Positions 2 to 14,044 of a stretch of DNA of 36,674 nucleotides are shown one piece after another; the stretch's first letter is position 1, and each line of letters begins with the position of its first letter. The notes beneath the pieces are model-generated. The model was not told where the DNA came from, did no database searches, and saw nothing but the letters and a program-made list of their open reading frames with translations. A program made the translations under genes and the position numbers. The stretch is from a virus, in the IMG/VR virus record IMGVR_UViG_3300034375_013297, positions 1 through 36,674 of that record; one strand, written 5' to 3'.

Positions 2-1027
2 ACTACAGTAAACGGTACTGAAGCTGGTACTACAACTGCAAGAGCAGAATTGGTTAAAGCTCTTGAGGATCACATCCAAGGATTCTCTGGTGCTGGTTTC
101 AACAACGACCAAGACTGGCAAGGACCATTCGTAGATGGTACTAAGACTTACAACCCAATGCTAAGAGGTGTTGGTGAGAGCACTTACTACCAATCAATGG
201 GTCTTTCAACGTTCACTAAGTTCGTTGAAGCTGATACTTTCCAAGTAGCTGCTTCAGTAACTACTGAGCAAATCCAAGACTTGAACAAGCAGTTTGGTAT
301 CGACGTTATCTCAATGATCGAAAATGCATTGGTTAATGAAGTATCACAAGCTATTAACAAGCACATCCTTTCTAGAGCATTCGCACTTGGTTGGTCTAAC
401 CACAGCGAGTTCTTAACTACAGAAGGTCAGAACTTGAACCTAAACCTCGTTATCGGTGGTACTGCAGGTTCTTACACTATTCCTTCTTACGTAGGTAAGT
501 CTGACTCGGGTATCGCTATTGCTTCTGTTGCAGGCCCTGCATCAGGAACTTACGAGAACTTGTCAACTCTACAGAGAAGACTATTCTCTAGAATCTTAGC
601 TTCTGCTAACGTAGTAGCTAACAGAGGAAGAAGAGGTCCTGCTAACTTCATCGTTACTAACGCTAACGTTGCAAGTGCATTGCAAGACATCTCTCAGTTC
701 ACTTTTGCTCCTTTCTCTAACACTCTTACTCAAAACAACGGAACACTTTACCCAGTAGGTTCGCTTGCAGGTATGACCGTTTATGTTGATCAGAACATGA
801 AGTTCGGTGATAACAGAGTACTAGTTGGAAGAAAAGGTGGTGACGACGAACCAGGACTTAAGTTCATGCCTTACATGATGGCTGAGTCTATCCAAACAAT
901 CTCTGAAGGTACAATGTCACCTAAGATTGCGGTTAAATCTCGTTACGCTCTAGTAGAAGCTGGTTTCCACCCAGAAACTATGTACTTCTGTTTCCACGTG
1001 AACGTTCCTGCTGGAGGTCTATCCTAA
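2..1027 (+). CDS. gp23: Major capsid protein, T4 gp23-like, 5' end cut off by the window
   Basis: The reading frame is open from base 2, so the first visible residues are internal and the N-terminus lies outside the window; 341 residues are visible, against roughly 520 for T4 gp23. The sequence reads like the C-terminal part of a gp23/HK97-fold capsid protein: a TTEQIQDL helix, a region ending in RRGPANFIVTN, a GMTVYVDQ segment, and the ending YALVEAGFHPETMYFCFHV, all in the order expected of gp23 homologues. The role is to form the hexamers of the head shell after prohead proteolysis. Codon choice differs from the neighbours: Asn, Tyr, Phe and Asp are mostly written with C-ending codons, as expected for the most abundant protein. 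A strong terminator follows 26 bases after the stop. The family call is from recognition, not alignment. Confidence 0.92.
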   Translation, partial: TTVNGTEAGTTTARAELVKALEDHIQGFSGAGFNNDQDWQGPFVDGTKTYNPMLRGVGESTYYQSMGLSTFTKFVEADTFQVAASVTTEQIQDLNKQFGIDVISMIENALVNEVSQAINKHILSRAFALGWSNHSEFLTTEGQNLNLNLVIGGTAGSYTIPSYVGKSDSGIAIASVAGPASGTYENLSTLQRRLFSRILASANVVANRGRRGPANFIVTNANVASALQDISQFTFAPFSNTLTQNNGTLYPVGSLAGMTVYVDQNMKFGDNRVLVGRKGGDDEPGLKFMPYMMAESIQTISEGTMSPKIAVKSRYALVEAGFHPETMYFCFHVNVPAGGLS

Positions 1028-1122: not shown

Positions 1123-2223
1123 ATGAGTAGAATTAAATCACATAAGCAATTTTTAATAGAGAGAGATCTTTCACAAGAGGTTGATCAGGTTATTCTTGCT
1201 GAGATGTTCTTAGAATATTACAATATTAATGAGGGTAAGGCTTTGGATACCCTCAAAAATAGTGTATCTAAAGCTCTATTAGGACCTTTCTCAAGATTGT
1301 CTGTTATTGATACAATTAGGAAGGGAAATTTAGATATTCAAAAAGAAATCATAACTAAGCAATATGATGTTGAGGATGAAGTTCTTGATCTAGAAGGTAA
1401 AATAGATGACCTAAGGAGCAAAGGAGCTTCAAGAAATGATATTGCTAGAATACGTACCCAAATCGAGAGGAAGAACAAGGAATTCCGATCTTTCGTTAAG
1501 ATGAAAAGGGAACAGATGAATAAAGGAATGAAACTCCTGGAAAAAACCGTTGGTAAAAATCCTAGAAGAAAGGAATATTACGAGGCAGGTTTTATCGATG
1601 ATAAGTATGACCTTGCTAAATTTGAATATGAGTTAGCTCAAAAGAAATCCAGTGACCAAGATAGTATTAAAAAGCTTAAATCCGATTTAGATTCAGCTTC
1701 AAAGAAAGCCGAATCTTTTGTCTCTAAAACAAAGGATTCCTCCAAGAGGGAAGCAACTATAAAGGATTCTGATCTTGGAGATCTTGCAAAGATTAGAAAA
1801 AATGTTGGATCTAAGGACCTTAATGTCGTTGTTTCCTTGAGAGAGAAATCAAGGGAAAAGATAAAGGATTTAAAATCTAGCATGCAAAAGGTACTTTCGG
1901 ATCTTAAGTCTTTTATGTCGAAGTCTCCTTCCTACGATGAGGTTCAGAAGTCTGGAAAAATATCTAAGGGAATTAAAGATCTAGAGGAAAGTGCTAACGA
2001 GCTAGACTCTTTGGAAAATTTAGCATCTATTTATAGCAATGTAATTAGTAATAAGGGAAAGGATCTTTCCAATGAATCTTCTTTGACCTCCCTTTTTTCT
2101 AAAATTAATAATGCAATTAATGACGGAAACGATGCAGGGTCTGGAATAACCAAGGAGGTAATTGATCTTAAATCTGATATAACCCTTAAAAAGGTTGGTA
2201 ATCTAATAAAAAAATTAGCCTAA
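1123..2223 (+). CDS. Lys-rich coiled-coil protein, candidate internal head protein
   Basis: This is a 366-residue protein of unknown function, rich in Lys, Ser, Asp and Glu and predicted almost entirely helical, with long heptad-like stretches at about residues 75-135 and 170-290. It has no signal peptide or membrane segment. Residues 4-19 read IKSHKQFLIERDLSQE, which resembles the N-terminal capsid-targeting leader of T4 internal proteins (MKTYxEF..E type, cut after a Glu by the prohead protease). Similar leaders occur in six other proteins here. It is the first gene of an operon of four (1123-5768) starting just after the capsid gene; the next gene begins one base after its stop. A scaffold- or core-like role is an alternative. 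There is no SD before the ATG. Confidence 0.8.
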   Translation: MSRIKSHKQFLIERDLSQEVDQVILAEMFLEYYNINEGKALDTLKNSVSKALLGPFSRLSVIDTIRKGNLDIQKEIITKQYDVEDEVLDLEGKIDDLRSKGASRNDIARIRTQIERKNKEFRSFVKMKREQMNKGMKLLEKTVGKNPRRKEYYEAGFIDDKYDLAKFEYELAQKKSSDQDSIKKLKSDLDSASKKAESFVSKTKDSSKREATIKDSDLGDLAKIRKNVGSKDLNVVVSLREKSREKIKDLKSSMQKVLSDLKSFMSKSPSYDEVQKSGKISKGIKDLEESANELDSLENLASIYSNVISNKGKDLSNESSLTSLFSKINNAINDGNDAGSGITKEVIDLKSDITLKKVGNLIKKLA

Positions 2224-2224
2224 C

Positions 2225-3118
2225 ATGTTGTTAAGTTTTAAACAGTGGGAATCACAAAACATAAATGAGAAAGACGGTGGTCTAGATAAGATCATGAATT
2301 GGCTTAGCTCCAACTTTGGTGGCACTATTTCTAAGATTGATTCATTACTTTCCGATATTAATTCTATTGAAACCAAGTATTCAAAAGAATGGAATGATAT
2401 ACAAACTGATATAGATGCTTTGGAGGTTAAAAAAGCACAAACCAAAAGTGATCCTGCTGAAGCTAAAAAATTGGAAAGAATGATAGATAGGAATCAAAAA
2501 CTCCTTTCAGCTTTAGGTAAAAAGAGAAAAGCTGATATTGATAAGATTGATTCCAAGGTTGAAAAACTTACCAAAGGAAAGCAAAGACTTATCTCCTACT
2601 GGAATTTGAAAAAATCTGAGCTCGAAGCTGATCTAGCCGAAAAACTTTATAAAATGGCAAAAGACCTTACAGACGAGTCGATAGCTGACGATCTCTATGA
2701 TAAGTATAAAAAAGCAGCCTTAGATGCTAAAAAGAAAGACGAAAGATTTAGAGAGAAGTTTGGAAAGCTTGACCTTGCAAAACCTTCTACCCTAAAGTCT
2801 GATGTGGAGGCTAGAGCTATTTCTGGTGCTAATTTTTCAATGGATCCTATATTTTCTATGAATGCACCTCAATTTACTAAATTTGTACAGGATCTGGAAA
2901 AAAGTCAAGTTGGTGCATTAATAAAAGCTATGCAATCTGAAAGAAATGAGAGGTATGCTACTCTAGATACTGAAAGGGATAGATTGGAAGCTCAAGCTAA
3001 AAAGAAAGGTTTATCTGCAGAGAGCGTTAAAAAAGATATGTCAGATTTAAGAGAAACCCTTATGAGACAGATAAGAGACCTAAGAACCAAAATAACAATT
3101 GCAAGAAGATATGCCTAA
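2225..3118 (+). CDS. Coiled-coil protein, candidate internal head protein
   Basis: A 297-residue, highly charged helical protein of unknown function. Residues 3-15 (LSFKQWESQNINE) match the leader motif shared by seven proteins of this window, ending in the Asn-Glu typical of the set. Long heptad-like helices follow at about residues 45-155 and 215-290. There is no membrane segment or enzymatic motif. The gene lies one base after the upstream stop and overlaps the next gene by 8 bases (ATGCCTAA), so the three are likely translated as a coupled unit. The location behind the capsid gene and the leader suggest a protein of the head interior or prohead core. This is inference; the sequence directly shows only the coiled-coil nature and the shared N-terminus. 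Confidence 0.78.
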   Translation: MLLSFKQWESQNINEKDGGLDKIMNWLSSNFGGTISKIDSLLSDINSIETKYSKEWNDIQTDIDALEVKKAQTKSDPAEAKKLERMIDRNQKLLSALGKKRKADIDKIDSKVEKLTKGKQRLISYWNLKKSELEADLAEKLYKMAKDLTDESIADDLYDKYKKAALDAKKKDERFREKFGKLDLAKPSTLKSDVEARAISGANFSMDPIFSMNAPQFTKFVQDLEKSQVGALIKAMQSERNERYATLDTERDRLEAQAKKKGLSAESVKKDMSDLRETLMRQIRDLRTKITIARRYA

Positions 3119-3380
3119 ACACATTAAGAAGCTTGACGAATTCCCAATTTTTGAGGGGGTTAATGAGGATCTGGTTAAGGCCAAAGCAGATGTTAATGCT
3201 AAGCAAGCTGAGATAGCTGAGGAAATAGCTAAACAGAAGGAAACCACAGACCTTAAGGAAAAAGCAGCAAGCATAAGAAACCAATCAAGATTGGTGGGTC
3301 AAATGCCAGCACTTTTAAATGCTTTAGCTAATGCAATGGATGCAAAAGCTGATTCAGGAGATACAACAAATATTTACTAA
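3111..3380 (+). CDS. Small charged helical protein with the shared leader
   Basis: An 89-residue protein of unknown function. I chose the ATG at 3111, which overlaps the previous stop as ATGCCTAA, over the upstream TTG at 3099: this gives an N-terminus with IKKLDEFPIFEGVNED at residues 5-20, very close to IKSFEDFKSESVNEN of the gene at 8682. The rest is an Ala/Lys/Glu-rich helix of about 65 residues. After cleavage at the Asn-Glu, only about 70 residues would remain, the size of a T4-type small internal peptide. It is the third gene of the 1123-5768 operon, with a 3-base gap to the next start. Confidence 0.72.
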   Translation: MPKHIKKLDEFPIFEGVNEDLVKAKADVNAKQAEIAEEIAKQKETTDLKEKAASIRNQSRLVGQMPALLNALANAMDAKADSGDTTNIY

Positions 3381-3383
3381 AAG

Positions 3384-5768
3384 ATGTCAAACAATTATCT
3401 TAGAAATAACCCGGTAGCTAACCAATTGTCCATAGATGCTTTTAAGCTCTATGAGAATAAAGATGTTGACGATGCTTTAAGAATATCAATCGACACGCTT
3501 TTAGCAGCATGTAAGAAGATTATATTCGATTTTGCTTCGGATCGAAATAGGACCTACGAGTCTTTTGCAAAAAAGATAGAATCCATTGGCGATACTTCTA
3601 CTGTTAAGGGCTTGATTGCAAATATCAAGGATGTTTGTGAGGATACTGAATTACATGATTCTGTTCTTGCACCACTCAAAAAAGCTTACCTTGACTCTAT
3701 CGATATGATAGGTGATGCAGTAAAGAGAATGATAGAGCTAGATCCTTCTCTTGAATCAAAAGCTATCCAAAATTTTAAATCTGCTGGTAAAAAACTTGTT
3801 GAGAGTGTAAAAAGAACAGCGGACGAGTATCAGGAAAAGCTAAACGAGTCTAGTGAAATAGGGGTACCTGGTAGAGTTCATCGGTTAAAGAAAATATTGA
3901 TTAACCACATTGTTGATTCTAAAGGAAAGGATGCAAAATCTGGATATGGGAGAGATTGGCAAAGGTTGTTTACGACACTTGCACAAAAACTTTCTTCAAT
4001 AAATAGCGATAAAGCTACTTTCTCTGATAACGATAGAAAAAACCTTGCAGAGCTTGAAAAAAAAGCTGATAATCTATCCCAGGAGTATGCTCAGTATAAA
4101 GTAAGAGCCGTAGAATCCTTGATGGGTAAACTGATGAAGGATGAAGATTTGGAATCTAAATTTGGCGACTTCTTTGAGATTATGACCAATGCTTTGGATA
4201 AAGTAACGAAAGCAAATACCGAGGAAGGACTTATAGAGGTCAAAGTAAGGGAGGATTTGGATGACAAGGAAACGAAAATGAATGATAGAGTGTTTCCACT
4301 AAAAATCGGTGACAAGGATAATGACACTAAGTTAAAGGGGTCAGGTCTTATTTCTTCTATCCAAAAAGCCCTTATCGATGCTTTTGTACCTATTAAGAAT
4401 TTAATGGATCCTAGAGGTGGTGCTAATGGTAAGTATGAATCCGCTACAGAAGTTGCTGTGAAATCAATACAATCTACATTAGGAAATAAGGATGTGAATG
4501 GTAAGCTGGATAAACCTTTGCTTGATATAATTTTAAAGTTAGATCAGGTATCTAAAGAAAACAAAGAGGCCATTAAGGATTCTATTAGTCAACTAAGGGG
4601 ATCTTATTCTTCGGTTAGAGAATCTAGTAATGCATTATCAGCTGCTGACTTTATGAGATTAATGGAGGCTATGACTTACATAGATCCAAACGAGATTGAG
4701 GTAAATATCAAAAATTATAGTCAGGAATTGGACGAGGATAACGATTCTGTATCAGAACCTACGACTTCCGATTACTCATTAGCAGAATCTCTAGCTAAAC
4801 TTTTAAGGACCAAAGACTATAATAAGAATGCTGAAGCCGAAGATTTCCTGAAGGAAGACGGAACTCTGAAGGGATCTTGTCCCCATGATTATGTTGATTG
4901 TTGGACAAAGGCTGTTTCTGGAGATAAACCAGTTTCTTTTTTTGTAATGGTTGACGATAATGATAATTGCTCGCTTTTCCCAACAAAGAGGATTTCTGGT
5001 AGTGTAAACAAGCCTTGTAATTGGAAAAGATATAAAGCCATTACTGGTGATGATATTGATGATGTCCACAAATTTGGAAATTGGTACACTTCATATTGGA
5101 AAAATTTCGGCGGTGTTGGTTCAGATATAAAGGCTAAAGTTTTGGACGAAGTAATGTCGTCCAATTGTAAATTGGCAAAAGAGGAAGGATTGAACGATGT
5201 TGCTTCTATCTACGAAGAATTGGAAAGTGCATTTATACCCAACAAGGAAGAAGTTTCAGGGGGGTATATTAGGCCAAATTCTATGAGATCTTTGGTATCA
5301 AGCATCAAAGGTATGATTGGAAATGATGGTATATCTAATCTTAGTCCTGGGGAACTCAGATCCCTTTATAATACTGTAATTGTTTGTTCACCCTTGATTA
5401 CTTATAATAGAGAAAAAGATGAATGGGTCCCTGCAATAAAAATGCTATGTAACTCTCTGGATATTACTGAGGATGACCTTGTTTCTGAAATTAGGAAGAA
5501 TTCTTCTCTTGGAAAAAGAGGTAAAATGTCAACTGAGAAGGTAGCTTTATTCGACACTAATTCTGGTGATAATGAAATTCTTAAGTCTACTATTATCGGG
5601 AGCACAGAGGATGCTGAGAAAGTTAATAATATGAAGCAAAGTCTTGGTAAGATTAAACCAATTCTAAAGAGCCTTTCTAAACACTGTAAAAGAATAGGTG
5701 TGAATGTAATTGATGACATTACTCCTGATATCTCAGACTCCATGGTCGTTATTACTAAGGAGGGATAA
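3384..5768 (+). CDS. Large helical protein (794 aa), candidate internal head or ejected protein
   Basis: Unknown function; the largest protein of the post-capsid operon. After a 13-residue extension, LSIDAFKLYE at residues 14-23 recalls the shared leader. Residues 1-300 are mainly helical and charged. At about 343-392, an NGKYxSxTEVAVKSIQxxLG stretch followed by VNG resembles a peptidoglycan-binding domain 1 repeat, a weak match. Residues 465-640 form a more globular region with Cys and Trp (CPHDYVDCW, NWYTSYWKNFGG), and the C-terminus is helical again. No catalytic motif was recognised. Size, operon position and leader suggest a large protein packed in the head, comparable in role to internal virion proteins of other phages. 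Its stop codon lies within the stem of the following terminator. Confidence 0.8.
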   Translation: MSNNYLRNNPVANQLSIDAFKLYENKDVDDALRISIDTLLAACKKIIFDFASDRNRTYESFAKKIESIGDTSTVKGLIANIKDVCEDTELHDSVLAPLKKAYLDSIDMIGDAVKRMIELDPSLESKAIQNFKSAGKKLVESVKRTADEYQEKLNESSEIGVPGRVHRLKKILINHIVDSKGKDAKSGYGRDWQRLFTTLAQKLSSINSDKATFSDNDRKNLAELEKKADNLSQEYAQYKVRAVESLMGKLMKDEDLESKFGDFFEIMTNALDKVTKANTEEGLIEVKVREDLDDKETKMNDRVFPLKIGDKDNDTKLKGSGLISSIQKALIDAFVPIKNLMDPRGGANGKYESATEVAVKSIQSTLGNKDVNGKLDKPLLDIILKLDQVSKENKEAIKDSISQLRGSYSSVRESSNALSAADFMRLMEAMTYIDPNEIEVNIKNYSQELDEDNDSVSEPTTSDYSLAESLAKLLRTKDYNKNAEAEDFLKEDGTLKGSCPHDYVDCWTKAVSGDKPVSFFVMVDDNDNCSLFPTKRISGSVNKPCNWKRYKAITGDDIDDVHKFGNWYTSYWKNFGGVGSDIKAKVLDEVMSSNCKLAKEEGLNDVASIYEELESAFIPNKEEVSGGYIRPNSMRSLVSSIKGMIGNDGISNLSPGELRSLYNTVIVCSPLITYNREKDEWVPAIKMLCNSLDITEDDLVSEIRKNSSLGKRGKMSTEKVALFDTNSGDNEILKSTIIGSTEDAEKVNNMKQSLGKIKPILKSLSKHCKRIGVNVIDDITPDISDSMVVITKEG

Positions 5769-5793
5769 TCTAGAAACTTATCCCTTCCTTTTT
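5757..5793 (+). terminator. Intrinsic terminator of the post-capsid operon
   Basis: Arm 5757-5768 (AAGGAGGGATAA, which includes the stop codon) pairs with 5778-5790 (TTATCCCTTCCTT) with one bulged base around a 9-base loop, followed by T residues to 5793. It ends the 1123-5768 transcript. Confidence 0.88.
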
Positions 5794-5820
5794 CCTATAA
5801 TTCACTGAAATATAACTTGG

Positions 5821-6756
5821 GTGGATCAAAGTGCTAAATTTTATTTTTTGACCTTTTGTAGTCTGGGTGCTCCCCACGACTCTGGACGTGATTTGAGTAG
5901 CAATATTTCCAATCTTAAATCATTACTTTCCTCTTATTTTGATGAAATAATTGTTTATAGCCCTTCATCCCTAAAGGAATGTGAGGGAAGTGAGGATTTC
6001 TGTAATGTGCTTGAAGGTGTGTTTCCTCTAAATCCTGGGATAAATGCTAACGGATGTGGTGATTTTAAGTCATTTATTATAAATAAGACCTTGTCTGAGA
6101 TGTCCGATGGAGATATTCTTTTCTACCATGATTGTAACTTTGAAAAATATCCTCAGTACTGGCAGACTGATTGGGGATTTCTAAGAGATTCGGTAGAGCT
6201 TTTGCTGCGTGAAAATAATTCAGATATATTCATTCCTTTTGAAAGCGAAGCCTTTGGTAAAATCCCGAAGGTTAGAATGCATGGAAAGAGATATACAACC
6301 GATGCAATTATAAAAGATCCAGTCGAATCTGATATAGTCTCTAGATGTTGGGAGATAGCTTCTAACCGAATGATGATACGGAATAGTCAATTTTCAAGAG
6401 ATTTCTTTGCTGAATACAAGGAATTGTGTGGGAGAAAAGATTTGCTTATGAAGTACCCAAACCCTAACCCGTATCCACAATTTACACACAGCTGTCCAGA
6501 ACAGCACGTTCTAAATTGCCTTATTTATAAGTACATCTTAGATGGAAAGTTAGATCCAAGATTTCCAAGATTTTCTTTCCCGAACAGAAAATTTGTCTTA
6601 AATTCTGATGTTGAAGTAAGAGTTAACTCTGAATTGTCGAAATATATGCAAACCAAGTCGATAAAAGAGTTTGAAAGAAGAAAAGCATTTAATGGGATCA
6701 AAGATCAAGATATTCGAGGGACCAAGGAATTCAGGCAAGACCTTTTTAGCACGTAA
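5821..6756 (+). CDS. Glycosyltransferase-like protein (GT-A type, unassigned family)
   Basis: A 311-residue protein. FLTFCSL near the N-terminus looks like the first strand of a Rossmann-like GT-A fold. GDILFYHDCN at about 97-106 resembles the DxD-type nucleotide-sugar/metal site (D104-C-N106) of galactosyl/mannosyltransferase-like enzymes. PEQHVLNCLIYKY at about 226-238 is like the acceptor-side helix seen in such proteins. No signal peptide is present, so it acts in the cytoplasm. The start is GTG at 5821; no in-frame ATG lies near. It is first in a three-gene group with a P-loop protein and asparagine synthetase. Its last 65 bases overlap the next gene in another frame, which is unusually long. 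Acceptor unknown; the family call is moderate. Confidence 0.65.
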   Translation: MDQSAKFYFLTFCSLGAPHDSGRDLSSNISNLKSLLSSYFDEIIVYSPSSLKECEGSEDFCNVLEGVFPLNPGINANGCGDFKSFIINKTLSEMSDGDILFYHDCNFEKYPQYWQTDWGFLRDSVELLLRENNSDIFIPFESEAFGKIPKVRMHGKRYTTDAIIKDPVESDIVSRCWEIASNRMMIRNSQFSRDFFAEYKELCGRKDLLMKYPNPNPYPQFTHSCPEQHVLNCLIYKYILDGKLDPRFPRFSFPNRKFVLNSDVEVRVNSELSKYMQTKSIKEFERRKAFNGIKDQDIRGTKEFRQDLFST

Positions 6757-7240
6757 ATATTCTGAGGTACACAACATTCCGATATTTAAGTTTGATTTTG
6801 TTGGTTGGTTCAACAGGCTTTCCTTGGATGACCAATCTCACGAGACACATAGCTTTGCTCTAGGTAAAGAGCTAATGTTATTGCAATTGTGTCGGGACGG
6901 GTTACTACCTCCTTTTATATTAGATCGTGGATTTCTAACAGTTCTTACTTGGGGAATACTTTCTGGTCGTATTACCGAAGATGAAGCAATAAATCAATTA
7001 AAGATGATTGCTGAAGAGGGATTGCTTAAAGATTGTGAAATCTATTTTGTTACCGGTGATAATCCGAACAAAGAAGATAGAAACAAGGATAACTGGGATT
7101 TTCGGGATGGAGATTCAAAGGAACAAGAGATCATGGAAAATCTGAGGGATTATGTTATGAATCAGCCATATAATGTTTATGTCCATCGGATATTCAACAG
7201 CTTTAATAATAAAACAGTAAACGACTTAAGACATATCTAA
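6692..7240 (+). CDS. P-loop kinase-like protein (nucleotide kinase type)
   Basis: A 182-residue protein. Residues 7-17 (IFEGPRNSGKT) form a Walker A P-loop right at the N-terminus, as in thymidylate and deoxynucleoside kinases. LDRGFLTVLTWG at about 82-93 resembles the DR motif of the same fold. The ATG at 6692 is required to keep a short lead-in to the P-loop; the TTG at 6671 would add seven unsupported residues. This start lies 65 bases inside the upstream gene. The downstream asparagine synthetase starts directly after the stop. It could phosphorylate a nucleotide, a sugar or another small molecule; the motif alone does not define the substrate. Confidence 0.72.
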   Translation: MGSKIKIFEGPRNSGKTFLARKYSEVHNIPIFKFDFVGWFNRLSLDDQSHETHSFALGKELMLLQLCRDGLLPPFILDRGFLTVLTWGILSGRITEDEAINQLKMIAEEGLLKDCEIYFVTGDNPNKEDRNKDNWDFRDGDSKEQEIMENLRDYVMNQPYNVYVHRIFNSFNNKTVNDLRHI

Positions 7241-8641
7241 ATGTGCGGGATAGTAATCACAAAAACACCAGGTGAAGAAATACTGGATACCATAAAACAT
7301 CGTGGTATTGAAAAAACCGTTGTTGAAAAAAACGGGCTTAGTATTTGTCACCACAGGCTTCCAATCCAGACAGTTGATGGTGATGATTGGAATCAACCAA
7401 TAGAGATAGCAGATGGCATCTATTTGCTTTTTAACGGGGAGATTTTTAATTATGACCGTGAAAGATTCGATTCCGACGTAGAATATCTCACTAATATTTT
7501 TGGTAGGTATCGAGGTGGGAGCTTTGAAATGTTTTGTTCTTTGTTTATACCAGAAATCCAAACTTGGGATGGATTTTGGGCTATTACAATATATGATGCA
7601 AACACTAATGATGTTATTGCTTTTACGGACCCTCTGGGACGTAAATGTCTTTATTATAATTCCCTTGGTGATATTGCTTCAGAGATAAAACCTCTTGTGT
7701 ATGAAAATTCCCAGATAGATGAGACTTTTATCAGCACGGTAAGAAAATGGGGATATAACACAGATGAAAGGACACCATATAGTGATATTAAAAGAATACT
7801 CCCAAATAACATATACAGTTTTAATTTAGATGCACCTGAATTTAAGAATGTGTATAGCACCTATTATAAAGGCTTCGATTTCCCAATCCAGGAATTAGTT
7901 GGTAAAAGTTACGAAGAGCATATGGAGTGGCTTTGGTCTAAAATGTTCGAATCTGTGAGAAACCGATTGGTTTCTAAGGATTATCCTATTTCTCTTCTTA
8001 TTTCCGGGGGACTGGACTCATCTATTATTGCATCAGTTTTGAATGAAATTGGAGTTGATGTTAGATGGTTTAGCATTGAAAATGGTGAAAAAGAGTTTGT
8101 AGATATTCTCTCTGAAAGACTTGGTAAGGAGGTTTCCTTTTTGGACTATAACATGGATGAATCTATGAATGAGGAGATTTACAAAAAATGGAACGAATCT
8201 CCAATAGACCTTGGATCTGTTATACCCCAGTATCATTTGTTTGATGCTGTTAAGAGGTTTGGGGGTTATAGGATAGTTCTTTCTGGCGATGGTGCGGATG
8301 AGCTTTTTGGTGGATATAAAAGAATCCACGAATATGATTCACAAAAGTCGGATGTATTTGATGAGCTAACTTACTATCATTTACCAAGATTGGATAAGAT
8401 GTCTATGGCTCACACTTTGGAACTTAGGAGTCCTTTTTTGAATTTGGATCTTGTAAGATTTGCTTTGCATTTGCCTAAAGAATGGAGAACTGATAAGAAA
8501 ATACTTAAGGACACTTTTTCACCACTGCTTCCTGAAGAAATAGTTAACAGAAAAAAAGCTCCTCTTAAAAACCCTAAGATCAAGCAGGATAAAATTGCTT
8601 ACCGTTATAAGGCAGTGGATCTTTTCTTAAGGAATAGATAA
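7241..8641 (+). CDS. asnB: Asparagine synthetase B-like glutamine amidotransferase
   Basis: A 466-residue protein. The start TAA-ATG-TGC places Cys2 as the class II amidotransferase nucleophile. The glutaminase domain (about 1-190) has HHRLPI, FNGEIFNY and TDPLGRKCLYY. The synthetase domain has the ATP-pyrophosphatase loop SGGLDSS (255-261) and SGDGADELFGGY (348-359), then the usual LPRLDKMSMAHTLELRSPFL helix region. All key residues appear present, so the enzyme is probably active, making Asn from Asp, Gln and ATP or amidating a related carboxylate. It is shorter than E. coli AsnB (about 554 aa), mostly at the C-terminus. The neighbours are a glycosyltransferase-like and a kinase-like gene rather than metabolic genes, so a sugar- or wall-modifying role is possible. 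AsnB homologues occur in other large phages. Confidence 0.93.
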   Translation: MCGIVITKTPGEEILDTIKHRGIEKTVVEKNGLSICHHRLPIQTVDGDDWNQPIEIADGIYLLFNGEIFNYDRERFDSDVEYLTNIFGRYRGGSFEMFCSLFIPEIQTWDGFWAITIYDANTNDVIAFTDPLGRKCLYYNSLGDIASEIKPLVYENSQIDETFISTVRKWGYNTDERTPYSDIKRILPNNIYSFNLDAPEFKNVYSTYYKGFDFPIQELVGKSYEEHMEWLWSKMFESVRNRLVSKDYPISLLISGGLDSSIIASVLNEIGVDVRWFSIENGEKEFVDILSERLGKEVSFLDYNMDESMNEEIYKKWNESPIDLGSVIPQYHLFDAVKRFGGYRIVLSGDGADELFGGYKRIHEYDSQKSDVFDELTYYHLPRLDKMSMAHTLELRSPFLNLDLVRFALHLPKEWRTDKKILKDTFSPLLPEEIVNRKKAPLKNPKIKQDKIAYRYKAVDLFLRNR

Positions 8642-8656
8642 ACTAGTCCAAGGAGC

Positions 8657-8664
8657 GATATATA
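8657..8664 (+). promoter_or_regulatory. Putative late promoter octamer GATATATA
   Basis: GATATATA lies 17 bases before the ATG at 8682, in the 40-base spacer after asnB. It sits inside the loop of a short inverted repeat (GGAGC 8652-8656, GCTCC 8675-8679), which may be chance. It is the same octamer as at 1093, 11312, 24575, 27950 and 35345. Confidence 0.45.
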
Positions 8665-8681
8665 AAGAAAAAAAGCTCCGA

Positions 8682-9362
8682 ATGGCAAATAATATTAAGT
8701 CCTTTGAGGATTTCAAATCAGAATCAGTAAATGAGAATTGGTTCAGTGACGGATTGAGTGGATTACTCGGTTATGCTGGTAATGCTTTCTCTGATGTTCT
8801 TAAAGGTAAAGCCTCTGCATACCTTTTAAGCTTTTTTGGAATTGGTGAACAATCTATATTCAGCAAGCTTGTACAAAACTTTGTTGAACAAATACCAGTT
8901 GCTGATTTAACTAAAATTATTTTTGCTGGAAAGGCTAATTCAGCCTACCTTGCACCCAAGATGGCGGATGCAACAATTGAATTCCTGACAGAAAAAGGAT
9001 TGGATGGTATTGCTCAGGATCTTGGTATTGAGCAGGACGGGTGGATTTATAGAACAATCTCTGAAATGCTTGCAAACCAGGCTAGAAGGGAGGACTTTAG
9101 AAATTCTTTAGAATCATTCTACTTACAGGCTTTCAATGGATTTGAGGGTGCTGCTGATAAGGATGATTTCATGAAGTCCCTTTCATCTACAGAAGAAAGA
9201 ACTCTAAAGAGTGGAATTGATAGAGTGATAGATGTTAGAGACAAAGAGGTAGATATGAATAAACCAGCAGGTGATCTAGTATCTGATTTTCTATCTGGTT
9301 TAGCCGGAAATGGACAATCCTTACAATCTTTGGGATTAAGCTCAGGAGGAACTATACAATAA
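8682..9362 (+). CDS. Candidate internal head protein with the shared leader
   Basis: A 226-residue protein of unknown function. Residues 5-19 (IKSFEDFKSESVNEN) are the clearest copy of the leader motif shared by seven proteins here. Beyond it comes a moderately hydrophobic, Gly/Ala/Phe-containing helical region (about 20-110; for example GLSGLLGYAGNAFSDVL), then a charged helical half and a Ser/Gly-rich tail. The hydrophobic stretch is not a clear transmembrane helix but could be membrane-active after ejection. It is probably transcribed from the octamer just upstream, together with the next gene, and the pair ends at the terminator at 9766. A minor virion protein not located inside the head is the alternative. 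Confidence 0.75.
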   Translation: MANNIKSFEDFKSESVNENWFSDGLSGLLGYAGNAFSDVLKGKASAYLLSFFGIGEQSIFSKLVQNFVEQIPVADLTKIIFAGKANSAYLAPKMADATIEFLTEKGLDGIAQDLGIEQDGWIYRTISEMLANQARREDFRNSLESFYLQAFNGFEGAADKDDFMKSLSSTEERTLKSGIDRVIDVRDKEVDMNKPAGDLVSDFLSGLAGNGQSLQSLGLSSGGTIQ

Positions 9363-9374
9363 AAACTTTAGATC

Positions 9375-9740
9375 ATGAATATAAATGACGTTTCAAAGAG
9401 GGAAGTTTTAGACTTCGATCAATTTAAGAAAAAGGTGCACGACGAGACATTTAAGCCTTTTGCTGCCGAAAATCAGGAAGGTGGTGAGGGTAAAACTGGT
9501 TTGCACAAAATAAAGAGAGAACCTGCTTATGATTGGGTAGGTTATGCAGATGCAGTATTTAGTCCAGAGAAAGCTGGTATCGAGGTACCTGGATACAATG
9601 CTGATGGTGATAGGGAATATACTATAGCAAATGCTGGACCCTCTATAGTTAATGCACCTAATTCATCTATTTCAGGGTTAGGAGAATCCGAAAAAGCTGT
9701 AAATGAATCTTTCTCAATAAAGAGATTGGGAGATTTCTAA
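9375..9740 (+). CDS. Small protein, possible internal head protein
   Basis: A 121-residue protein of unknown function, acidic and Gly/Asn-rich with little predicted helix after the N-terminus. VLDFDQFKKKVHDE at residues 11-24 is a weaker match to the shared leader (hydrophobic, x, Phe, acidic, x, Phe, then an acidic end). A second VNESF occurs near the C-terminus. It follows the previous gene by 12 bases and is last in its transcript before the terminator at 9766. No domain was recognised. Confidence 0.7.
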   Translation: MNINDVSKREVLDFDQFKKKVHDETFKPFAAENQEGGEGKTGLHKIKREPAYDWVGYADAVFSPEKAGIEVPGYNADGDREYTIANAGPSIVNAPNSSISGLGESEKAVNESFSIKRLGDF

Positions 9741-9765
9741 TAATTATCAAATTAACTAATTCTTT

Positions 9766-9797
9766 AAGACAGGTTTCTAACGAAACTTGTCTTTTTT
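9766..9797 (+). terminator. Intrinsic terminator
   Basis: Arm 9766-9776 (AAGACAGGTTT) pairs with 9783-9793 (AAACTTGTCTT) with one G-T pair around a 6-base loop, followed by a T run to 9797. It closes the 8682-9740 unit. Confidence 0.92.
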
Positions 9798-9803
9798 GTG
9801 TAC

Positions 9804-9811
9804 TATAAAAA
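9804..9811 (+). promoter_or_regulatory. Possible late promoter TATAAAAA
   Basis: TATAAAAA follows the terminator and lies 20 bases before the ATG at 9832. It resembles the T4 late element TATAAATA rather than the octamer seen elsewhere in the window. Position after a terminator is the main support. Confidence 0.35.
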
Positions 9812-9831
9812 GAAAAGATTAGAATAGCATA

Positions 9832-10500
9832 ATGAATATCAAACTAGTCCATATACTCACAGAACCCGAAACAAGAAGGGAGCAAGCATCGATAGATTCT
9901 TTATCTCCCCTAGGTGAAATGGGATTGACTTACTATCAGCAGGTAAATGAGAGATACAAAGGTGAAGCTTGGAGGGAAGTTCCTGCTCTATCACAATCTC
10001 CTGCAACTAATCACGGTCCTGGTCATTACGGTGCCTTCCAGTCTTTCAAAAAAGCAATGCTTGAGAATTTTACCGACGATCTTGATGCTTTGGTTCTTTG
10101 TGAATGTGATTGTGTGTTGGAAACTTCCCATGAGGATTTTATGAAAACCCTTGAGAGGGGTATTGAATTTTGCAATGAAAACGATCTTAAATACCTTTCA
10201 TTGGGATCTAGGTTTGTAAAGGGGGTTTTACAGTCCCCAGAGACTGGCAGTGACCCAAAATTCCCTGAATTTTATATTACAAACAAGGTAATATTGGCAC
10301 ATTGTGTTGTTCTCCCTGCTTTGTCTAGGGATGTCATTTTAGATTGTATCGATAAATTTAGCTGGGATAGCCCAGATATTTGGTTTAATGAGGTACTTTG
10401 GAGAAGTGGGCTAAACCAATTCGCAATTGTAAAGGAAAGACTTGCAAGACAACACGAAGGTGTTTCCCTTATTGATAATGTTTGGAAAGAATCTCAATAA
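9832..10500 (+). CDS. Glycosyltransferase-like protein (GT-A, GT25-like features)
   Basis: A 222-residue protein. The N-terminal VHILTEPETRREQASI resembles the first strand and loop of short GT-A enzymes such as family 25 (I/V-x-L-x3-x-R-R). NHGPGHYGAFQSFKKAM at about 62-78 corresponds to the helix before the metal site, and DALVLCECDCVLE at about 85-97 supplies an E91-C-D93 site in the DxD position. No signal peptide. It is probably a cytoplasmic sugar transferase acting on a phage or host acceptor. It converges on the minus-strand gene at 10501 with no spacer, so the two transcripts must overlap or end within each other. The family is a recognition call without alignment. Confidence 0.7.
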   Translation: MNIKLVHILTEPETRREQASIDSLSPLGEMGLTYYQQVNERYKGEAWREVPALSQSPATNHGPGHYGAFQSFKKAMLENFTDDLDALVLCECDCVLETSHEDFMKTLERGIEFCNENDLKYLSLGSRFVKGVLQSPETGSDPKFPEFYITNKVILAHCVVLPALSRDVILDCIDKFSWDSPDIWFNEVLWRSGLNQFAIVKERLARQHEGVSLIDNVWKESQ

Positions 10501-11229
10501 CTATCTCTTTTCTTTTTGTTCTTTAGAAACTTCTCTTATAAATAATTCCTTAGCTATCTTAAGAATAACTGAATCCTCATTAAAGTCTTCGTAGATCTCC
10601 ATAATATTGATATCCGGATCTACGTCTTTTTTTATTTCCAACGATTCAATTGCCTCGTGTGCGATGAATTCGTAAGACATTGAAAAATAAGGGTTTCTTA
10701 GAGGTATTTTTTTGAGCATTGTTGCATCTGATCCCTTGTTGGTTCTTCCGCATTGCCACCAATATACAAAAACGTTGTCGGTGGACATGTTTCTAAATAT
10801 TAGGATCCCACAATCTCTATTTTCTTTTGTGGTGAATCTTTCCAAACTAAAAGCCCTAATCCTGTTCTCTAAATTTTTCCAAAGGCTCATTCCCATGTCC
10901 GCGTATTTATAGAGAATGTTTAGCGAATTATCAATTATAGACAGAATCTCTTCCACCTCATCATCGCTAAAATCGCATCCTCGGAAATAAGTTATAAGAT
11001 CGTGGATATTTGAAGGTAGTTCTTCTGATACCTCCTTGAATTCGTTTTCGATCCAAACCTTAACGGAGGTCAATTCTTTGATCATGGAGAAAATTCTCTT
11101 GATCGGATAATATATGTCTTCGTCTTCTATGTCTTTATTGACCGTAGATAGGAAGTCTAATAAAATGTATTGTTTGTATTCTTGATCGATTGGATATTCG
11201 ATGAACCATGTGGGTTTAATGTCTTTCAT
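10501..11229 (-). CDS. Unknown protein, only minus-strand gene of the window
   Basis: A 242-residue acidic, mostly helical protein with no recognised domain. Notable parts are the N-terminal DIKPTWFIEYPIDQEYKQY, a central helical region (about 60-130), a mid-protein segment with FVYWWQCGR, and a Lys/Glu-rich tail. No signal peptide or membrane segment. It is read against all other genes; its stop abuts the stop of the glycosyltransferase gene, and it has a 114-base divergent spacer upstream with an ATATATA element for each direction. The opposite orientation suggests different timing from the late virion genes. The ORF is long, with an ATG start and normal composition, so it is very likely real. 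Confidence 0.8.
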   Translation of the reverse strand: MKDIKPTWFIEYPIDQEYKQYILLDFLSTVNKDIEDEDIYYPIKRIFSMIKELTSVKVWIENEFKEVSEELPSNIHDLITYFRGCDFSDDEVEEILSIIDNSLNILYKYADMGMSLWKNLENRIRAFSLERFTTKENRDCGILIFRNMSTDNVFVYWWQCGRTNKGSDATMLKKIPLRNPYFSMSYEFIAHEAIESLEIKKDVDPDINIMEIYEDFNEDSVILKIAKELFIREVSKEQKEKR

Positions 11230-11255
11230 GGTGGGAAGAATTATGTTTGTTACTC

Positions 11256-11263
11256 TATATATT
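11256..11263 (-). promoter_or_regulatory. Possible promoter AATATATA for the minus-strand gene
   Basis: On the minus strand AATATATA, flanked by GGTT and GAGTAAC, lies 26 bases before the ATG at 11229. It is a one-base variant of the octamer used in plus-strand spacers. Confidence 0.35.
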
Positions 11264-11311
11264 AACCCCCCGCCATTCTTCTAGACTTTTAAAGAACACG
11301 TTTTGAATCTT

Positions 11312-11319
11312 GATATATA
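11312..11319 (+). promoter_or_regulatory. Putative late promoter octamer GATATATA
   Basis: TTGATATATAATACATAAAA lies 24 bases before the ATG at 11344, in the divergent spacer after the minus-strand gene, where a plus-strand transcript must begin. It probably drives 11344-12685. Confidence 0.5.
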
Positions 11320-11343
11320 ATACATAAAAAAAGTGGTTTCCCA

Positions 11344-11781
11344 ATGCCAAGAATAGACGATTATATTTCTTTTAGTTCTAATAAGAAAAACAATATTTCC
11401 AACGAGTTTTCATTTTCAGCTGAACTCGGGTTACTTGATGTCCAGGTAGTTAATAGGCCACCTGAAATTAGTGATGTTGATTCTCTTGAGTGTGAGATTG
11501 AATACAAAGCTGGAATAGAGAGGAAAAAAGGGGGAATCCAAGATATTAGCTTTTTTGTAGAAAGTATTGAACTCGAAATTAAGGTTGATGATTACCCTAA
11601 CGAACAAAAAGAATTTGAGTTTGATATTGTCCCCGATGCAACTATCCCTATTCCTTCCGTGGTAATTCAGAAGGGAACAAGGTTAGTTCCAACAGATCCA
11701 ACTTTTCTAAGGATTGATATGAGAAAATCAATGAATCCGAAGGACTTTAAAGTGCAAATCCTTTTTGGAACAAATGAATAA
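11344..11781 (+). CDS. Unknown beta-rich protein
   Basis: A 145-residue acidic protein with alternating hydrophobic and charged residues, suggesting a beta-sandwich; no recognised domain. Features include FSFSAELGLLDVQVVNRPPEI near residue 30 and a C-terminal DFKVQILFG. It is the first gene after the putative promoter at 11312 and overlaps the next gene by 8 bases (ATGAATAA), so both are likely translationally coupled and act together. Its compact size and late-cluster position fit a minor virion or assembly protein. Confidence 0.75.
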   Translation: MPRIDDYISFSSNKKNNISNEFSFSAELGLLDVQVVNRPPEISDVDSLECEIEYKAGIERKKGGIQDISFFVESIELEIKVDDYPNEQKEFEFDIVPDATIPIPSVVIQKGTRLVPTDPTFLRIDMRKSMNPKDFKVQILFGTNE

Positions 11782-12685
11782 AGCCTTAAGTTTTAAACTA
11801 TTTGGTAAACTCCACGAGTCTAAGTCCGTATCCAAAAGTGACATTGGTTTGATAGGACCTAACCTTAATGGAGAGATCAAATTAAAATTAGAGAATCCTG
11901 GACTAGTCCTAAAAAGGGTCGAGGAGGGAGATGACTATGTTTTCAGCATTGGAGAAAAGTCCTGCTCTATTCCAAAAAAGTACGTGGGTCTTAGTACCCA
12001 ACCTGGTTTTGAAGTTGTTACTTTTGATACCAATATGAATTGGTTTAAGGATGAGAAAAACAGAAATGCCTTTGACGATATAGTGGAAGAATTCGTTTCG
12101 TCGAAATTTTCAAAAATGGGAAAATCTTTTAATAAGATTGAGGAGGATGCAAACGTTATCTTAGACATGCTAGGAATAGAAGATGATATTAAATCATGTA
12201 ATCATTCTTCTGATTTATCTTTGGATGCAGAGATCTCGAACGGTATGGAAATAGAGCTGGTTAAAGAAAATCACGATGACCTCTTTAAGAAGATATTCAT
12301 TTATAGAGATTCTGATGCAATACATCCATTCCTTGCAATTAAAAGGAACGGGAATAGGTTCAGCTGTGAATACCGTACACCACGGGGAATGTTTGAGTGT
12401 AAACACGATTCAATTGCTGAAATGCTAGAGAATCCCGTTGATAAATATCTTCTTACTGTATGCACTGGAAGTGAAACAGAGGGTTCGCAAAGGGAACTAG
12501 TCGATCATCTAATGAAGCTTTTTAAATATCATTCTTGGTCTAATCCGGACCAAAAAAATCCTAAAAGTATCCAGGAGAGAAAAGAGATAAAAAGGGTAAT
12601 GAGTATTTTAAAAAATTCAATACCCGACGATCACATCGAGGAAATGTACTCTGATGCTAGATCAAAATTTCTATCGAAAGGATAA
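11774..12685 (+). CDS. Unknown protein with leader-like N-terminus
   Basis: A 303-residue protein. I chose the ATG at 11774, overlapping the upstream stop as ATGAATAA, over the TTG at 11765. Residues 5-16 (LSFKLFGKLHES) resemble the shared leader of the internal-protein candidates, especially LSFKQWES of the gene at 2225. A mixed alpha/beta body follows, with NGMEIELVKENHDDLFKK at about 155-172, FSCEYRTPRGMFECKHDS at about 197-214, and a charged helical C-terminus. No catalytic motif was recognised. It ends 119 bases before the next gene, in a spacer that holds a hairpin. Confidence 0.75.
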   Translation: MNKALSFKLFGKLHESKSVSKSDIGLIGPNLNGEIKLKLENPGLVLKRVEEGDDYVFSIGEKSCSIPKKYVGLSTQPGFEVVTFDTNMNWFKDEKNRNAFDDIVEEFVSSKFSKMGKSFNKIEEDANVILDMLGIEDDIKSCNHSSDLSLDAEISNGMEIELVKENHDDLFKKIFIYRDSDAIHPFLAIKRNGNRFSCEYRTPRGMFECKHDSIAEMLENPVDKYLLTVCTGSETEGSQRELVDHLMKLFKYHSWSNPDQKNPKSIQERKEIKRVMSILKNSIPDDHIEEMYSDARSKFLSKG

Positions 12686-12804: not shown

Positions 12805-13479
12805 ATGGGATGGCTGAGTCGAATATTCAAGAAAAAGAAAATGGATCTTAAGGAAAAAACTTTAACAGAATTAAAGGAAGAATTATCCCAGGTTGACTTC
12901 CAGTGGATTAAAGGGGATAAGATGGGTAACGTTGAGAAGTTCAACGGGGTTACTCAGGACGAAGCTACTGGAATGACTTTTGTACAGTTTATTGGTGGTG
13001 GAAGGATTAACATTGAGCTTTTGGAGGAGTATTTAGAAACATTCCCTGCTTCTAAGGTTGATTATAATAATACCTCTGGCAATATTGATTTGACTCAACC
13101 GGATGTTCAGATGCAAAAGCAACAGGTTATTCAGGAGCCCACCGTTTCTAAGCCTGTTAGAAATACTGTTTCTGCCATTGAGCTTGAAGAATCACCGATA
13201 TATAAACTATTGAAACAGCAGAATGAAAATTGGGTGAATGTGAACATTACTCTTAAGTTAAATCTGCCTTCAAAAAATTTATACAATGTTTTAATTAGCT
13301 CCTTTGATGGTGCTAATGAGGAGATAATTAATTATGTGACCGAAGGAGTTGATATTGATGATATTAGAGGTGCTTTGGCAGAATCGATTACTTCTTATTA
13401 TGGTGGAACTCAAAAATCAACTAGCCAAAGGATAAAGAAAAAGCAAGAAACCAAAACGGCGGAAGAAGATGACGAATAA
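12805..13479 (+). CDS. Unknown protein, possible virion assembly factor
   Basis: A 224-residue protein without a recognised domain. It starts with the cationic amphipathic segment MGWLSRIFKKKK, followed by a helical/beta domain (about 15-85), a Gln/Val/Pro linker (about 95-125), a second globular part (about 130-200), and a Lys/Glu-rich tail. It overlaps the Nudix gene by 11 bases, and a chain of overlapping genes continues to 14707, so it belongs to a four-gene coupled unit. The N-terminus could bind membrane or nucleic acid; this is conjecture. Confidence 0.72.
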   Translation: MGWLSRIFKKKKMDLKEKTLTELKEELSQVDFQWIKGDKMGNVEKFNGVTQDEATGMTFVQFIGGGRINIELLEEYLETFPASKVDYNNTSGNIDLTQPDVQMQKQQVIQEPTVSKPVRNTVSAIELEESPIYKLLKQQNENWVNVNITLKLNLPSKNLYNVLISSFDGANEEIINYVTEGVDIDDIRGALAESITSYYGGTQKSTSQRIKKKQETKTAEEDDE

Positions 13480-14044
13480 AATACTTTTTGAAACTAAGGG
13501 ATTAAACCTTGTTGAGAGAGACGGTAGGGTTGGAGTAGTTCCAACTTTTATGAATGTTGTAGTAATGCCATTCGTTTCTGATGAACAAGGACTTCCTCTT
13601 GCTATTGGTGTCCTAAAGGAATCAAATCCCTTTAGAGAAGGTGGAATGACAGTTTCACTTATAACTGGCACAAGTGATGATGAGGATCCAGATCTTTTGA
13701 CCACAGCAAAGAGAGAATTGCTAGAAGAGAGTGGATTTGATGCACCAGAAAATGATAGGTGGTATTATTTGGGGTCAGTTACCTCCTCAAAGTTTGTAGA
13801 CCATGAGCAGCCCTGCTTTGCTGTTGACGTAACAGGATTGCAAAAGGGAGAGGCTTTGACAGATGGAACAAAGGAGGAGCAAGAAATGGAATTTAAATTT
13901 ATTCCAGCTAACGATGTTGTTAAAGCTAAAGATATCTTCATTCCTGGGCTTTTCCTTAAATTGTTCAAGTATGTTTTGGGAATTGACATACAAGGTTCCT
14001 CTCAAACTCCCGATGATGAAGTTTTTAAATTTTCTGCAGAATGA
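13469..14044 (+). CDS. Nudix hydrolase
   Basis: A 191-residue protein. R82-E83-L84-L85-E86-E87-S88-G89-F90 exactly matches the REUXEEXGU core of the Nudix box, which binds the catalytic metal. Upstream, the Gly of the box is one residue further away than usual (G67 rather than G68) and the first Glu position is not Glu, a variant seen in some subfamilies. The fold context (VVVMPFVSDEQGLPLAIGVLKE before the box; DHEQPCFAVDVTGL after) fits an ADP-sugar or ADP-ribose pyrophosphatase-like enzyme. The substrate is a nucleoside diphosphate derivative, not determinable here. It sits unexpectedly among small late genes, overlapping the neighbours on both sides (11 and 4 bases). Confidence 0.88.
   Translation: MTNKILFETKGLNLVERDGRVGVVPTFMNVVVMPFVSDEQGLPLAIGVLKESNPFREGGMTVSLITGTSDDEDPDLLTTAKRELLEESGFDAPENDRWYYLGSVTSSKFVDHEQPCFAVDVTGLQKGEALTDGTKEEQEMEFKFIPANDVVKAKDIFIPGLFLKLFKYVLGIDIQGSSQTPDDEVFKFSAE

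Follow-up and report, generated by a model that had tools for sequence, protein, structure and literature searches.

Here we describe a short N-terminal leader that recurs on otherwise unrelated proteins encoded by a 36,674-base virus record (IMG/VR IMGVR_UViG_3300034375_013297; 'the window' denotes this whole stretch), which has its first bases within a major capsid gene of the T4 gp23 type and passes through a cluster of head-protein genes into baseplate and tail genes. The leader combines a conserved tag with a conserved cut site, the two co-occur, a prohead protease gene is linked to the cluster, and there is a likeness to the internal proteins of phage T4. We consider it very probable that this shared leader is a capsid-targeting propeptide working like that of T4, and the best reading of the sequences is that a T4-type head-targeting propeptide system appears greatly expanded in this phage lineage. 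A preliminary description of the window had proposed such a leader on seven proteins, named here by the start positions of their genes, all of which do have an ATG where it placed them (3111 and 11774 begin at internal ATGs of open reading frames (ORFs) whose first start is TTG). These seven, a possible eighth that the description overlooked (11344), and the predicted propeptides, whose cut positions are inferred, are as follows (↓, predicted cut; rank, position among the 34 window proteins by model score):

1123..2223, + strand: leader-bearing protein, coiled-coil-like by eye (rank 4 of 34)
1123..1233, + strand: predicted propeptide of 1123, 37 residues
2225..3118, + strand: leader-bearing protein, probable prohead-core protein, MLLSFKQWESQNINE↓K (rank 5 of 34)
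2225..2269, + strand: predicted propeptide of 2225, 15 residues
3111..3380, + strand: small leader-bearing protein, probable prohead-core protein, IKKLDEFPIFEGVNE↓D (rank 2 of 34)
3111..3167, + strand: predicted propeptide of 3111, 19 residues
3384..5768, + strand: 794-aa protein with N-terminal FKLYE↓N cut-like site, long helices and a C-terminal mixed alpha/beta part
8682..9362, + strand: leader-bearing helical protein, IKSFEDFKSESVNE↓N (rank 1 of 34)
8682..8735, + strand: predicted propeptide of 8682, 18 residues
9375..9740, + strand: 121-aa protein tagged at both ends, N-terminal VLDFDQF conserved
9708..9737, + strand: C-terminal tag of 9375, SFSIKRLGDF after VNE, predicted C-terminal propeptide
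11344..11781, + strand: possible eighth tagged protein, MPRIDDYISF (rank 3 of 34)
11774..12685, + strand: leader-bearing protein, weak here (ALSFKLFGKLHE↓S), clear in orthologues (rank 9 of 34)

The leader was modelled as a 7-residue tag, a gap of 0-14 residues and a 5-residue cut site. The training set comprised 61 proteins picked by regular expression from three related contigs (G016, G011 and G013), without BLAST matches (E<=1e-3) to proteins of the window or of G001, the contig that contains it; one of these proteins, G016 270136, turned out to be a distant member of the 3111 family, so independence is imperfect for 3111. Genes were called with a greedy ORF rule (at least 60 aa, longest start) on contigs that are incomplete. 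The five highest window scores were those of 8682 (12.4), 3111 (10.5), 11344 (9.3), 1123 (8.7) and 2225 (7.8), and among the 34 proteins only these exceeded the 99% null level (7.7); next came 21753 (7.2, a large tail-region gene), 18798, 13469, 11774 (ninth) and 9375 (tenth), with 3384 in 14th place. As a group, the seven proteins outscored the other 26 window genes (Mann-Whitney p = 0.0005), and genes over the 99% null level made up 5/13 within 1123-12685 versus 0/20 downstream (Fisher p = 0.005), the 5'-cut capsid fragment being excluded from both comparisons. The claim that all seven share one leader stood for 8682, 3111, 1123 and 2225 (ranks 1, 2, 4 and 5) and, by way of its orthologues, for 11774; it held only in part for 3384, which has mainly the cut-site Glu, and for 9375, which is without an N-terminal cut site. 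Three copies had been described as weaker, and the ranks of 3384, 9375 and 11774 (14, 10 and 9) agree with this, except that 11774 is clear in orthologues. Once their leaders had been removed, the eight window proteins gave no pairwise BLAST match better than E = 0.012, in line with the view that the mature parts are unrelated. The bare pattern by which the leader had been recognized (hydrophobic-x-x-hydrophobic-[KDE]-x-[FW]) was not significant, occurring in 6/77 N-termini of G001 versus 3.7 shuffled and 3.2 interior.

Conservation was assessed in relatives of the capsid fragment, which were encoded on 199 viral-contig stretches, the best 80 being retained as loci; an orthologue share is the fraction of distinct N-termini, among the orthologues in these 80 loci, that score above the 95% level of shuffled sequences. 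For 8682 all 38 N-termini exceeded this level, and an alignment of 36 sequences has six invariant columns, two of which are the tag F11 and the cut-site E18, while the length of the spacer varies. All 18 of the 18 orthologue N-termini of 3111 did so, as did 80% of 49 for 2225, whose distinct orthologues retain [FY]xxW in 42/49 and NE in 43/49. In 1123 the tag IKSHKQF occupies residues 4-10 and the predicted cut follows NINE-37; 66% of 47 distinct orthologue N-termini exceeded the level, with an [NS]E site at ~25-50 in 42/47 and the tag in 34/47. Codons at key conserved leader residues are mixed, which points to conservation at the protein level. Local negative controls (UvdE-like, probable portal, protease, asparagine-synthase and one glycosyltransferase-like gene) gave 0-10% over the 95% level, a second glycosyltransferase-like gene 19% of 16 and the reverse-strand gene at 10501 25% of 16. 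The capsid protein itself gave 88% of 34, which is not trusted as a leader; its N-terminus carries a propeptide-like YHSLNE↓SAGAY, conserved in the relatives listed, at which the cut is putative.

The leader is found well beyond the capsid locus in large relatives. In the held-out contig G012 (400 of 434.5 kb), 57/541 genes scored at least 10 versus 0.9 shuffled and 1.3 interior, forming 49 sequence clusters that include adenylate kinase, CHAP and RimK-type proteins. The same threshold was reached by 11/178 genes in G004 (0.3 shuffled), 5/117 in G003 (0.2), 2/77 in G001 (0.4) and 2/88 in G002 (0.3), and in the training contigs by 39/425 in G016 (1.6), 24/298 in G011 (0.7) and 15/285 in G013 (0.4). 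When residues were counted without motif selection, 60/461 Met-initial G012 proteins combined a hydrophobic position 4 with an aromatic position 7, and 54 had the 7/10 spacing, versus 11-30 proteins for each of ten other offsets; G016 and G011 agree with G012. Tag and cut site are also associated with one another: in eight contigs, among them those used for training, proteins selected on the tag only had [ILVMF]NE within the next 22 residues in 60/197 cases versus 8.4 shuffled and 93/1812 untagged proteins, and Ser follows the Glu in 21 of the 60 (4.6 expected).

With leaders trimmed, 151 leader proteins of six contigs fell into 87 BLAST clusters, 62 of them single; 49 clusters are present in G012, 29 in G016 and 24 in G011, and the genes are dispersed over the contigs of large relatives. 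A Pfam scan of 147 of these proteins (four spanning piece borders were dropped) matched 41 families at E<=0.001, the 25 most frequent of which include leucine-rich repeats (10 proteins), adenylate kinase (4), the murein enzymes SLT (3) and CHAP (3), RimK-type ATP-grasp (2) and nucleotidyltransferase (2), and single guanylate kinase, DegT aminotransferase, exonuclease, PG_binding_1, OmpA and AAA proteins; a YkuD/Tlde1-like leader protein, among ten inspected, lies just under both Pfam cut-offs. No reliable family was returned for the leader proteins of the window by PHROG and Pfam scans. A side observation concerns G016 39510-48374 (L134/L135), where ten tandem paralogues all start (M)MKRI(S/I/V)NYK(T/A)F(I/V)NE; they belong to a 24-protein cluster common to G004, G011, G012 and G013.

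The protease expected of such a system is present in the lineage. Contig G001 (locus L001) contains the window at 100% identity across 35,931 bases, and upstream of its capsid gene lie a nucleotidyltransferase-like gene, a 903-aa gene that is probably the portal (assigned by position; Pfam gives no match) and a protease. The protease adjoins the capsid gene, matches Pfam S77 at 31.2 bits (cut-off 27) and has a long C-terminal part; it is not within the window itself, since the window begins inside the capsid gene. An S77 prohead protease is encoded by 20/20 related contigs, G001 among them, 19 above the Pfam cut-off. When T4 was scanned with the same model, ipI, ipII and ipIII, annotated as 'internal virion protein', ranked 1, 4 and 6 of 250 called genes. 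The likeness to the T4 capsid-targeting sequence that had been proposed is upheld by this ranking of all three T4 proteins among the six best of 250, by the use of the same 4/7 positions, by a hydrophobic-x-E site and by the S77 protease. According to the available text of PMC9026906, targeting of T4 IPIII depends on residues 4 and 7 and its processing on residues 8 and 10; an Asp at position 10 prevents processing and leaves targeting intact.

Taken as a mechanism, a tag with a hydrophobic residue 4, F/Y/W as residue 7 and often F/L/Y as residue 10 would dock proteins of unrelated sequence at the core of the growing prohead; after the shell has been completed, the phage's own S77 (gp21-type) protease would cut after the Glu of the [VIL]-N-E site, and the mature protein so freed would stay inside the head. 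In this scheme 1123, 2225, 3111 and perhaps 3384 would be core or scaffold-type proteins, 8682, 11774, 9375 (which bears another tag at its C-terminus) and possibly 11344 would be additional tagged proteins of the head, as cargo or as parts of the core, and large relatives would place the same label on dozens of lineage-specific proteins. Docking, cleavage and presence in the virion are what we infer from these sequences, and delivery into the host, plausible by likeness to T4 internal proteins, is speculative, as is any anti-defence or takeover role. We regard as evenly balanced the proposal that large members use a general address label to pack ~40-50 different proteins into the head and deliver them on infection, with one family labelled at its C-terminus and the injected proteome readable from the genome; the same even balance applies to the inclusion in this cargo of nucleotide kinases, a RimK-type ATP-grasp ligase, an exonuclease, murein enzymes and leucine-rich-repeat proteins.

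Several results weigh against a T4-like targeting propeptide. In T4 only ipI passes 10 (ipII 9.0, ipIII 8.7), and of the three T4 genes that score at least 10 (3/250 versus 0.3 expected) only ipI encodes an internal protein; the model's best 'cut' in ipII and ipIII differs from the known one, because the model cannot score a cut overlapping the tag, and the likeness there rests on the tag. In a phmmer alignment, LNE↓SAG of the capsid protein and the T4 gp23 site do not come into register. A preliminary suggestion was that a search for N-terminal motifs would recover the leader: in a de novo ZOOPS (zero or one occurrence per sequence, MEME-type) search of six contigs with four shuffles per run, this held clearly in G016, G011 and G013, and the result was weak or off-motif in G004 (a motif at width 13 only, none at width 10), G003 (slight or none) and G001 (above shuffles, with a motif that differs from the leader). 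G013 has no 4/7 excess. No virion proteomics or cleavage data were found for the lineage. Labelled kinases, ligases and an aminotransferase in large relatives are not obvious head proteins. A control that favours the propeptide has a limit of its own: a score of at least 10 was reached by 0/254 proteins with a match in T4, PAU or PTm1 and by 146/1473 others (proteins of G012, G016, G011, G013 and G004; queries of at least 100 aa; Fisher p = 6e-11), and the leader therefore sits on lineage-specific genes; the 254 were taken without separating head from non-head proteins, so the control is not evidence of head-specificity. Equal frequency outside structural genes had been named as a result that would count against the leader, and here the outcome was divided: 0/254 conserved genes carry it, but many dispersed proteins of large relatives do, some of them enzyme-like.

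One alternative is that the tagged proteins of the window are only prohead core or scaffold, like T4 gp22, gp67 and gp68, shredded at maturation and never delivered, with the tag serving as a core-assembly motif and not as a cargo label. The gene order behind the capsid gene is fixed as 1123, 2225, (3111), 3384, (glycosyltransferase), AsnB, 8682, 9375 in 44 of the 55 loci with >7.5 kb behind the capsid gene start (3111 being detected in 20 of the 44), which places 1123, 2225, 3384 and 8682 as core genes might be placed, and 1123 and 2225 evolve fast (median identity among relatives 34% and 41% versus 78% for the capsid protein). The block 1123-2225-3111-3384 fits core proteins because of this fixed order, and 1123, 2225 and 3111 look core-like because they stand directly behind the capsid gene, evolve fast and are coiled-coil-like by eye; these three are probably prohead-core proteins rather than ejected effectors. 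An earlier view of the set as seven internal head proteins, possibly ejected, is to this extent inexact in its number and in the role it offered for 1123, 2225 and 3111. A purely structural role for every tagged protein of the window leaves unexplained the same leader on adenylate kinase, CHAP, SLT, RimK-type and leucine-rich-repeat proteins of relatives, and we regard it as a serious possibility that falls short of probable. Less credible is the idea that the label addresses some other phage-built place (a replication compartment, a membrane, or a ribosome or chaperone partner), where the protein would be cut by an unknown protease, with head packaging as one destination only. Many labelled proteins of large relatives do look like cytoplasmic enzymes and are dispersed, but the model also gives high ranks to the three internal head proteins of T4, the label sits on genes beside the capsid gene, and none of the 254 proteins common to T4, PAU or PTm1 is labelled; we judge this explanation unlikely.

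The similarity could also be a by-product of start-region composition, whether through A/T-rich codons, Sec signal peptides or initiation context. Many leaders begin MKN-I-K, close relatives have the bare pattern at little more than chance frequency, and at least one model match in phage Lak-B1 looks like a signal peptide by eye. Against this stand the F and E of 8682, invariant across a spacer of variable length, the tag at a C-terminus in 9375, and the absence of excess in phage RaK2. Signal peptides, initiation context and nucleotide-level motifs were rejected on the mixed synonymous codons at conserved residues and on the finding of a signal-peptide-like hydrophobic stretch in 0/151 leader proteins. 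We give compositional bias very little credence.

Protein 3384 is without a standard tag, and 0/43 orthologues exceeded the 95% null, yet all 38 sequences in its alignment have the cut-site Glu (E24). An AlphaFold2 (AF2) model (mean pLDDT 81.1) gave no Foldseek match at E<=0.001 against the PDB and viral models. Residues ~302-392 resemble peptidoglycan-binding domains at a borderline level (VIA-align Z 8.7/7.6/7.1 for three chains over 72-78 residues), these rows standing among many helical-bundle rows in the structure comparison, and the match to Pfam PG_binding_1 is below cut-off (E 0.19). Internal head proteins acting on murein are known from T7 gp16. For 8682, a model of pLDDT 63.6 gave no match at E<=0.001 in a fold search.

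In 9375 the N-terminal REVLDFDQF type is kept, no [VIL]NE follows VLDFDQF among the orthologues listed, and 11% of 38 orthologues exceeded the 95% level. Its C-terminal tag (IKRLSDF type) is present in 34/37 distinct orthologue C-termini, often preceded by (N)ES, with a pattern chosen after data inspection. A stricter C-terminal pattern occurred once each in G001, G002, G011, G012 and G016, always in the 9375 family (5/8 contigs), once each in other proteins of G013 and T4, near the shuffled rate, and was absent from G003, G004, PAU and PTm1; no second C-terminally tagged family was found with it. The tag I-x-D-Y-x-x-F/Y of 11344 is kept in 13/14 orthologues, among which no cut site is conserved; the orthologues fall mostly under the 95% null for this reason (14% of 14 over it). 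This protein might be tagged but uncut, by analogy with T4 IPIII carrying Asp at 10. For 11774 an orthologue share of 14% of 7 is a miscount, the N-termini having been trimmed: the seven distinct relatives listed are all tagged, followed by NE in five, ITE in one and FE in one, and a family listing of eight members is likewise all tagged, then NE (3), FE (2), KE (2) or HE (1).

Two genes of L001 outside the window also have leader-like starts. The nucleotidyltransferase-like gene just upstream of the probable portal (L001:3692-4483; Pfam NTP_transf_2 below cut-off) has a near-perfect leader, VVKGFSDFVLNE↓DK, kept in relatives, with 85% of 41 orthologue N-termini over the 95% level; its sequence suggests a possible head-packaged enzyme. 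A conserved 160-aa gene (L001:693-1175) has an atypical leader-like start (YIKTINEFFD and YIKSINEYFD types; MKYIKSINEYFD in relatives), with 75% of 36 over the level.

The capsid gene with which the window opens is as follows:

2..1027, + strand: T4 gp23-type major capsid protein gene, 3' part (PHROG major head protein, 7.5e-29)

Its full-length copy in L001 matches Pfam Gp23 at 7.7e-42. By identity to the capsid fragment, Lak (49%) is the nearest of the named phages, followed by Tenacibaculum PTm1 (39%), Flavobacterium MaF61 (35%) and PAU (33.7%), and the host of the lineage is therefore probably a member of the Bacteroidota. The exact match to G001 stops at 35931, within a truncated gene (35402-36673) that encodes SprB repeats (4.6e-17) and long TPTPT-rich stretches of gliding-adhesin type, which points to a Bacteroidota host or receptor. 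Within the head-gene cluster lie leaderless glycosyltransferase-like and P-loop-like genes (5821-8641 and 9832-10500; by eye, no Pfam match), a leaderless asparagine-synthase gene (PF00733, 2.4e-38) and a single reverse-strand gene amid the forward cluster (10501-11229; 242 aa, no Pfam family; match in 37/80 loci). Among the baseplate and tail-region genes are a NUDIX protein (13469-14044; 9e-06), an S1-domain RNA-binding-type protein (24614-25780; 2.8e-16) and a predicted tail-region protein (18798-21062) with a repeat unit of ~22-26 residues (VYxNVPGxDLGVPDRxY) noted by eye.

If the label marks head cargo, the proteins delivered at the first moment of infection would be predictable from sequence in the huge phages of this lineage, which would provide short lists of candidate early takeover or counter-defence factors for phages known mostly from metagenomes. 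The targeting code itself is already known from T4; its use would then extend well beyond T-even phages and, relative to the three internal proteins of T4, would have grown >10-fold in one lineage. The C-terminal tag suggests that the code is not bound to the N-terminus, and new packaging tags for loading proteins into laboratory phages might be obtained. Presence in this lineage, the more-than-tenfold expansion and the C-terminal copy were not found described in the open PMC literature, and the term 'capsid targeting' is absent from the available parts of PMC7824862, PMC13282480 and PMC12363816, which concern possibly related or jumbo phages.

Comparison with other phages sets the leader in context. 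In the distant relative Sphingomonas phage PAU, two proteins known by annotation alone as internal capsid proteins (gp142 and gp154) have the N-termini MKSLTNLYENKLNEA and MKTISKLYEAKLNEA, with LNE↓A at the end, but the PAU tag differs in that LY replaces the F-x-x-F spacing. By eye, PAU (L182-L192) has a possible leader variant MK(T/S)(I/L)(S/T)(K/N)LYE(S/A/N)KLNE(S/A), gp142 and gp154 included, and Lak-B1 (L205-L224) a possible variant KKxLYESIMKS...(I/L)NE; these variants may mark each phage's own head cargo. Scores of at least 10 were found for 2/286 PAU genes (0.9 expected; 0/10 tag-only proteins with a following NE), 6/291 in PTm1 (0.4, yet 0/16 tag-only proteins with a following NE), 7/442 in Lak-B1 (2.0, in 400 of its 548 kb; by eye, one or more of the seven look like signal peptides) and 6/371 in KVP40 (0.3). 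The 346-kb Klebsiella phage RaK2, which has an S77 protease, showed no excess (2/519 versus 1.4 expected), and leader expansion is therefore not general to jumbo phages; the RaK2 virion is given as 54 proteins by mass spectrometry in the available text of PMC3622015. The jumbo phages phiKZ and SPN3US resemble the present lineage in having many head-packaged inner-body or ejection proteins, some with cleaved N-terminal propeptides (PMC5694885, PMC10052503, as far as available); in the same portions, 6/8 SPN3US N-terminal propeptides are long (111-254 residues), the sites are A-x-E/S-x-E and 42 head proteins are reported to be uncut. Ejection propeptides of this type were ruled out on these accounts for the leaders described here, which are ~13 to 43 residues long with mostly N-E sites. 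T4 Alt, cut at both ends by gp21 according to the accessible part of PMC9026906, offers a precedent for the doubly tagged 9375, which is tag-like at both ends with a cut-like site before the C-terminal tag and at which cleavage is putative; no sequence relation between the two was seen, and none was tested for. The closest known system is the capsid-targeting sequence of the T4 internal proteins, cut by gp21, which shares with the leader described here a short N-terminal form, hydrophobic or aromatic residues at 4 and 7, a hydrophobic-x-E cut, unrelated mature parts and an S77 prohead protease. Unlike T4, this lineage prefers N-E at the cut, varies the length of the spacer, carries tens of labelled clusters in its large members versus a few proteins in T4, and has one family tagged at the C-terminus.

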